Below, piece after piece: positions 23,386 through 48,733 of a stretch of 64,000 nucleotides of DNA. The DNA lies in assembly GCA_016235245.1 (NCBI GenBank), contig JACRLO010000035.1:1-64000 (forward strand), read 5' to 3'. This DNA is from Nitrospirota bacterium. Its GTDB lineage: Bacteria > Nitrospirota > Thermodesulfovibrionia > Thermodesulfovibrionales > UBA6898. The number at the start of each line of letters is the position of its first letter. Position 1 is the stretch's first letter. The translations under genes were made by a program, and so were the position numbers. The notes under the pieces were generated by a model, which was not told where the DNA came from, ran no database searches, and was given only the letters and a program-made list of their open reading frames with translations.

Positions 23386-23402
23386 TGCCTTTTCTGATCA
23401 AT

Positions 23403-23500
23403 TCCCTGTTTCCTCCGTCGGAATTATCCGTATCAGGTTCAAGGGGTCTCTCCCGCTTTACCGAGAGACTCTCAGGCATAAACTGCCTCCCCCAAGGGTT
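23403..23500 (-). promoter_or_regulatory. TPP (thiamine pyrophosphate) riboswitch aptamer
   Basis: Read on the minus strand, the region contains the conserved THI-box elements in order: a 5' ACCCTTGGGGGAGG strand, the TGCCTGAGA pyrimidine-sensor bulge, a variable hairpin, ACCCCTTGAACCTGATACGG (the CCUUUGAACCUGAUCUGG element) and the GATAATTCCGACGGAGG 3' element, closing with a P1-like CAGGG. TPP binding would repress the downstream thiSGEC operon. Identification is by motif reading; no covariance search was run. Confidence 0.92.
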
Positions 23501-23506
23501 GATGTA

Positions 23507-45827: not shown

Positions 45828-45843
45828 TAATCTACCTTACATT

Positions 45844-46734
45844 ATGTTGCGAGCACAGCGAACCATAAAAAATGAAGTGTCGTTTGAAGGTATAGGCCTC
45901 CACACAGGCAAGCATTCACGCGTGACGCTCAAGCCTGCTTCGCGTGATGCGGGGATAACCTTCATAAGAACGGACAAGCCTGCCATCATTAATGCTCATG
46001 TCGGAGCTGTTATTGATACTGCATTTGCAACAACCATTGGGGTTAATGGTGTAACAATCAGGACGGTAGAGCATATACTTGCGGCGCTGGCCGGGCTTGG
46101 AATCGACAATATCATCATTGAAGTGGCTGGTCCCGAGATACCTATTCTTGACGGCAGTTCAACAGAGCTTATCAGTTTTGTTCTCACGGCCGGCATAGCA
46201 AAACAGGGCAAGAAAAGACCATATTTGAGAATCAACAAGCCTTTTATTTTTGAAGATGGCCATGCGCATATAGCTGCGTTTCCCTATTGCGGCAGCAAAA
46301 TAACCCAAAGCATCTTTTTCCATCATAACGGTATCGGCGAGCAGAGGATCAGCATTGACATTACCGAGGAGAATTTTGTAACAGAGATTGCTCCGGCCAG
46401 AACTTTCGGATTTCTAAAGGACATTGAATATTTGCGCAGCAATGGTCTCGCAAAAGGTGGTTCTCTTGATAATGCCGTTATAATGGGAGAAAACGGTGTA
46501 ATAAATGCTTCTGGACTCAGGTTTACGGATGAGTTTGTGCGTCATAAAGTTCTTGATTCTATTGGAGATTTTTCCCTGATCGGGTTTCCGATCTATGGAC
46601 ATATTGTTGCGAGCAAGTCAGGCCACTCAAGCAATATCAAATTTCTCAGGAAACTTATATCCGCCCCGGAGATTTGGGATATTATTGTTGAAGAGCAGTT
46701 GTCTCCTGTCCATGATATGCAAATAAGTATTTAA
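45844..46734 (+). CDS. lpxC: UDP-3-O-acyl-N-acetylglucosamine deacetylase LpxC
   Basis: This protein of about 296 residues catalyses the committed step of lipid A synthesis. Its start RTIKNEVSFEGIGLHTGKH matches the family. Zinc ligands are His in TVEHILAALAGLG (near residue 73) and the His/Asp pair in RHKVLDSIGDFSLIG; the catalytic His is in KSGHSSN. It proves that the organism makes LPS. An in-frame GTG at 45811 overlaps the sigma-54-type promoter and gives a poor N-terminus, so the ATG at 45844 is used. No ribosome-binding site is visible. It shares no operon with tldD (130-base gap). Confidence 0.95.
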   Translation: MLRAQRTIKNEVSFEGIGLHTGKHSRVTLKPASRDAGITFIRTDKPAIINAHVGAVIDTAFATTIGVNGVTIRTVEHILAALAGLGIDNIIIEVAGPEIPILDGSSTELISFVLTAGIAKQGKKRPYLRINKPFIFEDGHAHIAAFPYCGSKITQSIFFHHNGIGEQRISIDITEENFVTEIAPARTFGFLKDIEYLRSNGLAKGGSLDNAVIMGENGVINASGLRFTDEFVRHKVLDSIGDFSLIGFPIYGHIVASKSGHSSNIKFLRKLISAPEIWDIIVEEQLSPVHDMQISI

Positions 46735-46801
46735 AATCAATACGTTGTCAGAATCATCAAAATCTTTTTCCTAAATTTATTGAGCTTGTGCTAATATAAA
46801 C

Positions 46802-46833
46802 AAAAAAAAGCTGGGGAATTGCTGTTCCCCAGC
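46802..46833 (-). terminator. Intrinsic terminator of the Lys/Ala-rich peptide gene
   Basis: On the minus strand a 9-bp perfect stem GCTGGGGAA / TTCCCCAGC (46833-46810) with a six-base loop is followed by eight T. It lies 24 bases after the small gene at 46857-46946. Confidence 0.9.
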
Positions 46834-46856
46834 CATAGTAACCAAGTATCTTTTAA

Positions 46857-46946
46857 CTATTTCTTCTTCTTTGTTGCTGCTGCCTTCTTCGGAGCTGCCT
46901 TCTTTGTTGCTGCCTTCTTCGCTGCGGGCTTCTTTGCTGCTGCCAT
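46857..46946 (-). CDS. 29-residue Lys/Ala-rich histone-H1-like peptide
   Basis: This small frame was found by reading the strand directly. From the ATG at 46944-46946 it encodes repeated K-K-A-A/P-A units ending in KKKK and TAG. Of 29 residues 13 are Lys and 11 are Ala, like the tails of bacterial histone-H1-like proteins and eukaryotic H1. It has a good ribosome-binding site (AAAGGTGGTG about seven bases upstream) and a strong terminator directly after it, so it is a stand-alone gene. A role in nucleoid or RNA binding is inferred from composition only. Its short repeats probably expand and shrink. Confidence 0.65.
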   Translation of the reverse strand: MAAAKKPAAKKAATKKAAPKKAAATKKKK

Positions 46947-46991
46947 GTTGGTCACCACCTTTCTTTACCCCAATTCAGGGGGATGTTGAGA

Positions 46992-47552
46992 TTAAAGCTT
47001 CCCCATCAGGATGATCTTCTCTCCTGACAGGAGCTTTTCAAGCTCTGGGTCTCCGCTTTCCTTCTTGCTTTTGAACTCGGCCTCATCGATCATGGTCACG
47101 CTGATCTTTTTGATGAAGCGCTCTTCAATATCCTTGAGACCCTCAAGCGAGACTGAGCCGACTATCAGGACATTGACCGTGTCGGCCTCCTCACTTTCTG
47201 TATAGGGACCGAATATGAAAGCAATTTTTGCCCCTGTTGTCTTCAGCATCGCCTTAAGCGCACCTGTCACGCCAAGTGACTTTGCAATGATGCTCTTCAG
47301 TTCAGTAAAGAAAGGGGATTTTTTGTCGGCCTGGAAATATTTGAGATTTGCAACTTTCTTGCTTATAAGGATACCCATATTTTCAAGATTGTCGAGCTCT
47401 CTCTTGACACCGGAGGGGTTTTTTCTCAGAAGCGTGGCAATTTCCCTGACGTAGAACCGTTCGTCAGCATTATTTAGAAGCAGCGCCAGGACATCGGCTC
47501 TAATGGCCGATGAAAAAAGACTCTTTAGTGTATCTCGTGCCTGCTTGCTCAT
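46992..47552 (-). CDS. Winged-helix protein with degenerate nucleotidyltransferase-like domain
   Basis: This protein of about 186 residues has an N-terminal ArsR-like winged helix (about 8-85: LFSSAIRADVLALLLNNADERFYVREIATLLRKNPSGVKRELDNLENMGILISKK). Its C-terminal domain aligns with minimal nucleotidyltransferases of similar wHTH-NTase proteins. The catalytic motif is lost: FIFGPYTESEEADTVNVLIVG has Pro for the Ser of GS and lacks the D-x-D. It is therefore probably a DNA-binding regulator rather than an enzyme. The longer upstream reading is discarded. The ATG at 47552 sits 12 bases after a TATAAA box and lacks a ribosome-binding site. Confidence 0.8.
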   Translation of the reverse strand: MSKQARDTLKSLFSSAIRADVLALLLNNADERFYVREIATLLRKNPSGVKRELDNLENMGILISKKVANLKYFQADKKSPFFTELKSIIAKSLGVTGALKAMLKTTGAKIAFIFGPYTESEEADTVNVLIVGSVSLEGLKDIEERFIKKISVTMIDEAEFKSKKESGDPELEKLLSGEKIILMGKL

Positions 47553-47958
47553 GTCTTGTGTATATTTATACAACAGGAGTATCCCACTTGTCAACAAAAA
47601 AATCATAAATAATAACAGATTGTTCAAATACTGGAACAGACCAATATTTACAAATAAACGATACTTGCGGCGAGATAAACGATTCTGCTGTTTGCGAGAA
47701 CGACTGATCATTTTCCCTATATGACTATTACCAACCAGACAACAGTCATTGTCTAGACCGCATGCTTTGTTGACTTGAAGTGCTGGAAACACCAGCATCG
47801 ATGCATTATCTATATGTTGGGGTCTGAAGTTAGTTACTACTATTTATAGGATTTTCAGTTGAACAGCAGATTGGCAATAAAGGCCTTTATACAGCGAGGT
47901 AAATGCTAAGGGCAGGCTGGCAGGATCAAAAATCCCTGCAACCTGCCCTTATTTGAAA
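47553..47958. other. 406-base region without genes
   Basis: Apart from the promoter at 47565-47594, this AT-rich region holds one hairpin: AAGGGCAGG (47908 region) pairs with CCTGCCCTT (47942-47950), with inner complementarity TGGCAGGAT / ATCCcTGC. It lies just after the DsrE2 gene on minus and may act as a transcript end, but no U-run follows on that strand. Nothing else is recognised. Confidence 0.5.
47565..47594 (-). promoter_or_regulatory. Promoter of the winged-helix gene
   Basis: On the minus strand TTGACA (47594-47589) and TATAAA (47570-47565) are 18 bases apart. The -10 box ends 12 bases before the ATG, predicting a leader of about six bases. Confidence 0.65.
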
Positions 47959-48498
47959 CTAAACAAAAAGCGTGGTATTTGAATTAAAAGAACTGCCGAG
48001 GAATGCCGCAACTCCGCCAAACTCGAGTCCGTCTATGAGATCTTCCTTTTTGATCCCCATCACATCCATCGACATCTGACAGACAACAATTTTAACACCA
48101 AACTCGATCGAAGTATCCACAAGCGACTGAAGCGAGGTGATATTTTTTTTGCCCATCATGTAATTGAAGAGCTTTGGCCCAATACCTGCAAAGTTCATTT
48201 TTGATGTAGGGAGATTTGCAGTCCCTTTCGGCCTCATCATCGTTACCATCTTTTCAAGAAAATTCTTTCCTGCGCCGGTCATGGTCGGCTTCTTCAGTAC
48301 GTCGATACCCCAAAATGTCACGAAAATCGTGACTTCCTTTCCCATCGCAAGAGCTCCGTTGGCTATGATAAAGGCAGCAAAAGCCTTGTCAAAATCACCG
48401 CTGAAAAGCACCATAGTAAGGTTTGATCTATTGGCCTCAACCTTTTCCAGTCGCTCCTCAAGCTCTTTAATCTTCTCCTGGACTGCGTCTGTAGTCAT
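47959..48498 (-). CDS. DsrE2-type (DsrE/DsrF/DrsH-like) protein
   Basis: This 179-residue protein has a short N-terminal coiled coil (AVQEKIKELEERLEKVEAN) and a DsrE2 domain (VLFSGDFDKAFAAFIIANGALAMGKEVTIFVTFWGIDVLKKP, KMNFAGIGPKLFNYMMGKKNITSL). It has one conserved Cys in KIVVCQMSMDVMGIKKEDLIDG. In sulfur-oxidising bacteria DsrE2 proteins transfer sulfur to or from TusA, and the TusA-like gene lies ten bases upstream here, so the pair is a sulfur-relay module. DsrE2 is often membrane-bound. This one has no clear membrane helix and is predicted to be soluble or peripherally bound. Confidence 0.9.
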   Translation of the reverse strand: MTTDAVQEKIKELEERLEKVEANRSNLTMVLFSGDFDKAFAAFIIANGALAMGKEVTIFVTFWGIDVLKKPTMTGAGKNFLEKMVTMMRPKGTANLPTSKMNFAGIGPKLFNYMMGKKNITSLQSLVDTSIEFGVKIVVCQMSMDVMGIKKEDLIDGLEFGGVAAFLGSSFNSNTTLFV

Positions 48499-48508
48499 AA
48501 GTCCTCCG

Positions 48509-48733
48509 CTACTTCTTGGTAATGATAACCGTAATATCCTTGCCGGTCTTCGTGAGACCGCTCATAGGATGACCAGTCTCTTTGGCCCACGCAATGATAT
48601 CAGGCTCAAACCCGGCATCATCGCTGATAGCCTCAAACATGTCACCCGAAGCTCCTTTTTTTACCGCTGCTGCCAGCTTCATGATCGGCATGGGGCAGCT
48701 CAATCCCTTCAGATCCAATGTAGTCTTTGCCAT
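48509..48733 (-). CDS. TusA/SirA-type sulfurtransferase
   Basis: This 74-residue protein has the TusA fold with the active CPxP motif (LDLKGLSCPMPIMKL, Cys about residue 13) and the conserved helix 2 end IIAWAKETGHPM. The Cys carries a persulfide in sulfur trafficking. It is transcribed with the DsrE2 gene ten bases downstream. The family splits into tRNA-thiolation TusA and dissimilatory relatives. The DsrE2 neighbour and the absence of other tus genes in this window favour a dissimilatory or general sulfane-sulfur role. Confidence 0.9.
   Translation of the reverse strand: MAKTTLDLKGLSCPMPIMKLAAAVKKGASGDMFEAISDDAGFEPDIIAWAKETGHPMSGLTKTGKDITVIITKK

Follow-up and report, generated by a model that had tools for sequence, protein, structure and literature searches.

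A Lysine/Alanine Micropeptide Gene Paired with a Winged-Helix Gene of Probable MNT-HEPN Kinship in Nitrospirota

A 29-residue lysine/alanine-rich (K/A) micropeptide is encoded behind a gene for a winged-helix (WH) protein in a 64,000-nt stretch of Nitrospirota DNA, hereafter the window, and the same pairing recurs across relatives. With moderate confidence, we propose that the two genes form an autoregulated module, kin to MNT-HEPN pairs, that would supply large amounts of a histone-H1-tail-like polycation acting on nucleic acid. The module and its surroundings comprise the following features.

45835–46734, plus strand: lpxC (Pfam LpxC, E = 1e-102), a convergent neighbor outside the module
46801–46834, minus strand: intrinsic terminator, a 10-bp stem (46834–46809, six G-C pairs) followed by T8, assigned from its structure and from relatives
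46857–46946, minus strand: K/A micropeptide ORF, 29 aa (ATG at 46946, stop at 46857), assigned from its retention in relatives and its codon substitution pattern
46952–46964, minus strand: extended Shine-Dalgarno sequence AGAAAGGTGGTGA preceding the K/A ATG, assigned from duplex energy and rarity in the genome
46968–46981, minus strand: CCCC-loop-GGGG hairpin of four pairs ahead of the Shine-Dalgarno sequence, its stem longer in many relatives
46992–47552, minus strand: WH gene, 186 aa, with an N-terminal ArsR-like wHTH and a C-terminal degenerate MNT nucleotidyltransferase-fold domain
47565–47594, minus strand: putative WH-K/A operon promoter, TTGACA (47594–47589), an 18-nt spacer, and TATAAA (47570–47565), with the start codon 12 nt further on
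47589–47681, minus strand: five YGTT repeats spaced 21, 22, 21, and 21 bp apart (by eye), the last overlapping the -35 element; candidate WH operator

The Micropeptide ORF and Its Expression Signals

The minus-strand ORF translates to MAAAKKPAAKKAATKKAAPKKAAATKKKK, which carries 12 Lys and no acidic residue, has a computed pI of 11.0, and has one match in the 3.25-Mb assembly. Genes and proteins this small are usually skipped by gene calling and proteomics. The original prediction of a 29-residue Lys/Ala gene with its own ribosome-binding site and terminator, placed at 46802–46946 (the ORF plus the terminator), is borne out by the ORF itself, by its Shine-Dalgarno duplex of -18.7 kcal/mol, and by the 10-bp stem with its T8 tract. 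The duplex energy was computed against a generic 16S 3' end because the source genome's own 16S gave no match when searched for in the assembly. By this measure, the K/A site is stronger than those of all 57 long, non-overlapping ORFs taken from the window (median -8.5 kcal/mol; 58 ORFs with K/A included, taking the best of up to five starts per long ORF). The pattern GAAAGGDGGTGA-N3-9-ATG occurs four times in the assembly, the K/A gene among them. By our own motif reading, the other three sites precede ORFs of 105–141 aa with signal-peptide-like starts, and one of these longer ORFs contains several CxxCH motifs. Among the four ORFs with this same extended Shine-Dalgarno sequence, the one at L211 (G000:C10 near 42886) is 112 aa long and has a signal-like start and repeats rich in K, A, and E.

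RNA structures flank the ORF in most relatives. Of 75 distinct leaders, 53 contain a hairpin with a stem of 5 bp or longer whose end lies 5–7 nt before the Shine-Dalgarno sequence, whereas dinucleotide shuffles predict 21.4 (mean z of -2.0). The sequences of the stems differ from locus to locus. Downstream, a script detects a terminator-like structure after 72 of 75 K/A ORFs, versus 29 of 375 mononucleotide-shuffled tails; in the three misses, a stem and a T-rich tail are visible by eye. The terminator arms in one set of loci are GGGAATACCC and GGGTATTCCC, separated by a long loop. Between lpxC and the K/A terminator lies an extended -10 promoter-like block, TGTGCTAATAT (46787–46798, plus strand), directed antisense toward the K/A gene. 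The block recurs by eye in near relatives of family f1, and an antisense transcript from it is possible.

The substitution pattern points to translation. Across 49 overlapping pairs of equal-length K/A ORFs, substitutions at the three codon positions number 62, 18, and 306. Codons with a single change in these overlapping pairs are synonymous in 272 cases (92%) and nonsynonymous in 24, where uniform change would give 22% synonymous; 15 disjoint pairs give 70 versus 5. One antisense frame is likewise open and is 73% synonymous because its wobble positions overlap those of the sense frame, and the sense frame, at 92%, accounts for the substitutions better. Two properties are products of the procedure. 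The in-frame openness of the K/A ORFs arises by construction and is no evidence of coding, and an N-terminal MA is forced in the coding and composition analyses because the script anchors on ATGGC; the K/A ORF of L251 begins MV. Judged from sequence, translation of the K/A ORF is near certain.

Pairing with the WH Gene and a Shared Promoter

The frame is conserved in relatives, on which the original prediction had depended. WH was found in all but one of the source family's 27 genomes (26 genomes, 29 loci), and a K/A ORF follows in 24 of the 24 family loci with DNA beyond WH. This count covers 27 of the 29 loci, of which two stop at the contig edge and one (L040, also L216) is a distant WH paralogue without a K/A ORF; two 5' fragments, L039 and L041, lie outside it. 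In a wider set of named loci, comprising the best 80 of 117 WH loci and nearly all labeled Nitrospirota, all 78 with DNA beyond WH carry a K/A ORF, and the other two (L058 and L059) stop at the contig edge. L066 and L121 bear other phylum labels, and some named loci are labeled 'uncultured'. The 78 loci do not equal 78 genomes because L092 and L099 share one MAG. A script returned 66 of the 78 ORFs, and the 12 below its limits, 11 ORFs of 13–14 aa and one open to the contig end (L119), were read from printed DNA or from the codon analysis; for L080 and L103, the script's reading gives no ATG start.

Beyond this order, a K/A ORF is present in 23 of 23 loci with close WH homologues (E below 1e-60) from other orders of the class, 18 plus five fetched later, with some genomes shared with the named loci. 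In a phylum search, the WH model matched 153 of 395 genomes, and strong in-order matches beyond the named loci were left out of the locus-by-locus reading. A distant WH gene of family f14 (L182) has a K/A ORF 165 nt on. L082, L083, L100, and L102 have two K/A genes in tandem downstream of WH, and each copy is preceded by a separate Shine-Dalgarno sequence. A search with the peptide by itself (E up to 1) recovered 12 of the 27 family genomes, versus 24 by synteny. The Shine-Dalgarno pattern, found in 38 of 176 genomes across the order, was kept out of the counts.

In families f9 and f11 of the order, the genomes examined contain no close WH and yielded no K/A ORF; the function is therefore dispensable or replaceable. 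Among 27 genomes without a close WH, 26 have no WH match (20 by the listing of matches, six checked separately), and the 27th (G114) has only a distant WH (E = 2e-24), behind which lies a HEPN-like ORF. Matches of two sequence patterns in genomes without a close WH included no K/A ORF; the patterns were of limited sensitivity, the first recovering four of six positive genomes and the second 60 of 76 loci.

The K/A ORFs span 13–108 aa across relatives (median 26), and the shortest form is the 13-aa MAAKKKAAKKKKK. In 75 K/A ORFs of the named loci (L080 and L119 dropped; L058, L059, and L103 not parsed), Lys makes up 45%, Ala 35%, Thr 8%, and Pro 6%, with no Asp or Glu, and 71 of the 75 end in KKK. 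Acidic residues occur in two relatives from other orders, one Glu in L167 and three in the 96-aa L251. Little is fixed in these peptides beyond Lys pairs and the KKK end, and with lengths from 13 to 108 aa, charge and flexibility are therefore probably what is selected.

The original prediction had pointed to lpxC or the winged-helix gene as the place to look for the peptide in relatives. The peptide was indeed found beside the winged-helix gene, and lpxC proved to be only a common convergent neighbor: among 71 loci with enough sequence to judge, 65 have a convergent lpxC no more than 1500 nt away. lpxC was rejected as a functional partner because the six loci without an adjoining lpxC still have the K/A ORF behind WH. 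Fusion of WH to K/A by read-through or frameshifting was also rejected, as the K/A start falls in frame 0, 1, or 2 of the WH stop in 27, 20, and 29 of 76 loci, respectively; this variable relation argues that no read-through is conserved. An attenuator leader peptide would need a co-directional gene behind the terminator, and in the 65 of 71 loci with convergent lpxC this is not the arrangement.

Upstream of WH, TTGACA is present in 78 of 78 regions (77 loci plus the window), and in 64 of the 78 the best -10-like hexamer, mostly 17–18 nt on, shares five or six bases with TATAAT. The start codon lies 12 nt past the -10 element in the window, and the WH message may therefore be nearly leaderless. 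Pairs of YGTT at 21–22 bp number 104, versus 5.1 expected, and occur in 51 of 68 dereplicated loci. Judged solely by its position, the array is probably the WH operator, and the operon would then be autoregulated by WH. A wider WH regulon was considered and dropped. A strict form of the array was matched 16 times across 29 genomes, at only 11 WH promoters, which speaks against the operator reading, and at five sites elsewhere, and a reversed-pattern control gives nine; matches elsewhere are thus below the control level, and no regulon is claimed. In L070, L075, L079, and L085, GAACNNNNGTTC palindromes lie upstream of WH near the repeat array. We take GAACNNNNGTTC to resemble a LexA box, so a regulator other than WH is possible at these repeats.

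Kinship of the WH Protein with MNT-HEPN Pairs

The WH protein, with a computed pI of 9.1, gives a single match in its genome. Its AlphaFold2 model is of fair quality (pLDDT 85, pTM 0.62), and structure matches to the whole model fall mostly on the wHTH part, which is ArsR-type; partial matches to ASMT and TrmBL2 structures were also returned. When the C-terminal domain was modeled separately (pLDDT 83), the first eight Foldseek matches were all MNT antitoxin, HI0073, or MntA-HepT entries (E of 2e-3 to 1e-2, probability 0.97–1.00, TM 0.45–0.54, rmsd near 5). The window WH protein matches PADLOC PDC-M05A with E = 1.1e-35, and PHROGs and PADLOC gave further weak matches. In a 2026 survey (PMC12988326), PDC-M05 is presented as a nucleotidyltransferase paired with a HEPN protein, with an unconfirmed antiviral role.

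More distant WH homologues bring the HEPN gene into view. Among 22 loci fetched for weaker WH matches (E of 1e-46 to 1e-52), a HEPN-like ORF lies next door in 20, overlapping the end of the WH homologue. The remaining two are L182, with its K/A ORF, and L184, with neither; L215 is the same gene as L184, fetched again. Weaker matches in G196, G212, G222, G234, and G393 fall outside this set. HEPN-like partners matched Pfam HEPN in two of two tested and PADLOC PDC-M05B in three of three. hhalign of WH against a HEPN-paired homologue gave a probability of 99.7, and HMM matches to HEPN-paired homologues are near full-length. In an unrooted tree of moderate support, in which L184 is labeled HEPN-paired though its stretch has neither a HEPN nor a K/A ORF, the K/A-paired and HEPN-paired proteins are strongly clustered. 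K/A pairing needs two changes on this tree, and a single origin is possible.

The nucleotidyltransferase site itself appears to have decayed. The motif GSX10DXD is described as needed for adenylylation (PMC7641770). It is present in none of 91 WH proteins, a set that includes one sequence cut inside the motif (L059) and the distant member L182. At this site, 76 of the 91 have G followed by P, usually with two residues missing between, and L164 fits a looser form of the pattern out of register. The full motif is also absent from all 21 proteins of the HEPN-paired comparison group, of which at least 14 keep GS and none keeps DXD. DXD is thus missing in both groups, and the domain is therefore probably inactive in K/A-paired and HEPN-paired proteins alike.

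The WH-K/A module shares with PDC-M05/HEPN-MNT pairs the PDC-M05A match, the MNT-like C-terminal domain, and the two-gene layout. It differs in having neither an adjacent HEPN gene nor GSX10DXD, and a polycation gene instead; in the K/A loci, no HEPN gene lies next to WH, and the K/A ORF stands in its place. These comparisons make it most likely that the module is kin to wHTH-MNT/HEPN pairs and that it has lost the HEPN gene along with an intact nucleotidyltransferase site. We infer that the MNT-HEPN arrangement is ancestral. If this is correct, a polycation has taken over from the HEPN half of an MNT-HEPN-like pair.

Likely Role of the Micropeptide

The peptide had originally been likened to a histone H1 tail. 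The resemblance holds for its K/A/P-rich, basic composition and stops short of model-level similarity. The window peptide has no model match in Pfam, NCBIfam, or PHROGs, and a 107-aa relative scores 44 bits against a cutoff of 135 for NF038052 and 37 against 80 for NF038053, the Hc2 and Burkholderia H1-like models. Like Hc2, the Burkholderia H1-like proteins, and the Pseudomonas AlgP/PhaF tails, the K/A peptides are K/A/P-rich and highly basic with a varying number of repeats. Those proteins, however, are long or are tails on another domain, whereas the K/A peptide stands alone behind the WH gene. The size of Chlamydia Hc2 reportedly also varies by lysine-rich pentamers (PMC2848022). Literature searches with K/A peptide strings and for Thermodesulfovibrio small histone-like proteins gave no match, and those on Nitrospirota small ORFs or iterons gave nothing relevant. 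The K/A peptide would thus work like an H1-type tail yet belong to no described family that we found.

These observations lead to the mechanism that we favor. WH would bind the array of 21-bp-phased repeats ahead of its -35 element and control the operon, with K/A co-transcribed as the second, 3' cistron. The very strong ribosome-binding site, the gene's own terminator, and the leader hairpin present in most relatives would yield much of a short, disordered polycation. This peptide would serve as an H1-tail-like counter-ion on nucleic acid, nucleoid DNA first and RNA second, and the module would have arisen from a wHTH-MNT/HEPN-like ancestor through loss of the HEPN gene and decay of the nucleotidyltransferase site. 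On composition, the peptide probably binds DNA or RNA in the manner of a histone H1 tail, and a nucleoid role is plausible; other polyanions, such as polyphosphate, are possible targets. Several points count against this mechanism: the 13-aa form is very short for a condensing protein, two relatives contain acidic residues, families f9 and f11 do without the module in the genomes examined, and the window peptide matches no curated model. What the analysis describes is a micropeptide family whose members can be as small as 13 residues and on which purifying selection acts strongly across a class of environmental bacteria. It also offers a natural series of polycation lengths with which the effects of charge and length on nucleic-acid compaction could be tested.

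A general polyanion binder, directed to RNA and the ribosome or to polyphosphate granules and not to the nucleoid, is the alternative that survives best, though we consider it unlikely. The K/A composition suits any polyanion, and AlgP, an H1-like protein with KPAA repeats, associates with polyphosphate granules and alters their spacing (PMC9239181). The same paper describes an extra N-terminal domain in AlgP, which the K/A peptide lacks, and the pairing with a DNA-binding protein weakly favors DNA as the target.

A bolder reading can also be drawn. In eukaryotic linker histone H1, a winged helix and a K/A/P tail occupy one chain. The WH-K/A pair likewise combines a winged-helix DNA-binding protein with a K/A/P-rich tail-like peptide, but as two genes and with an ArsR-like wHTH, and Linker_histone (Pfam) gives no match at E up to 1; no fusion of WH and K/A in one chain occurs in the loci read. 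The pair could be a split linker histone derived from a toxin-antitoxin-like pair, in which a dead-nucleotidyltransferase wHTH sits on the phased array and a separate H1-tail-like micropeptide of freely varying length works with it and replaces HEPN, an idea that we hold to be doubtful.

The peptide might instead be a direct ligand of WH, occupying HEPN's place on the degenerate MNT domain and tuning DNA binding, for example, as an anti-repressor or as a DNA-affinity tail supplied in trans. Its strict pairing with WH even where lpxC does not adjoin, the HEPN-like gene in the K/A position of distant homologues, and the single match of WH in its genome, with the strict array mainly at its own promoter, would all fit. 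The basic WH protein disfavors a polycation as its ligand, however, and the wide length range disfavors a specific interface, leaving this possibility improbable. Still harder to sustain, and very unlikely in our view, is a toxic or growth-modulating cationic peptide under WH control by toxin-antitoxin logic. The kinship with MNT-HEPN pairs and the probable promoter array speak for it, but purifying selection, single copy number, and a conserved neighborhood resemble a housekeeping gene, and the expression signals are strong, with no sign of damping.

We give least credence to an ORF that is not translated for the sake of its product. Such an ORF might act as a leader or stall ribosomes, which Lys-rich runs can slow, or it might arise incidentally from a regulatory RNA or from a gene on the opposite strand. 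Hairpins at both ends in many loci, the open antisense frame with its synonymous bias, and the promoter-like block facing the gene in near relatives favor this reading. Against it, most loci have no co-directional gene directly behind the terminator, the substitutions are better accounted for by the sense frame, which is also the one served by the conserved ribosome-binding site and ATG, and length changes within an open frame, up to 108 aa, point to a product.

Two further features of the window lie outside the module. A TPP riboswitch is found at 23392–23503 on the minus strand (63.7 bits), and two small ORFs upstream of WH (47959–48733, minus strand) look like genes for what we take to be DsrE-type and TusA-type sulfur proteins.
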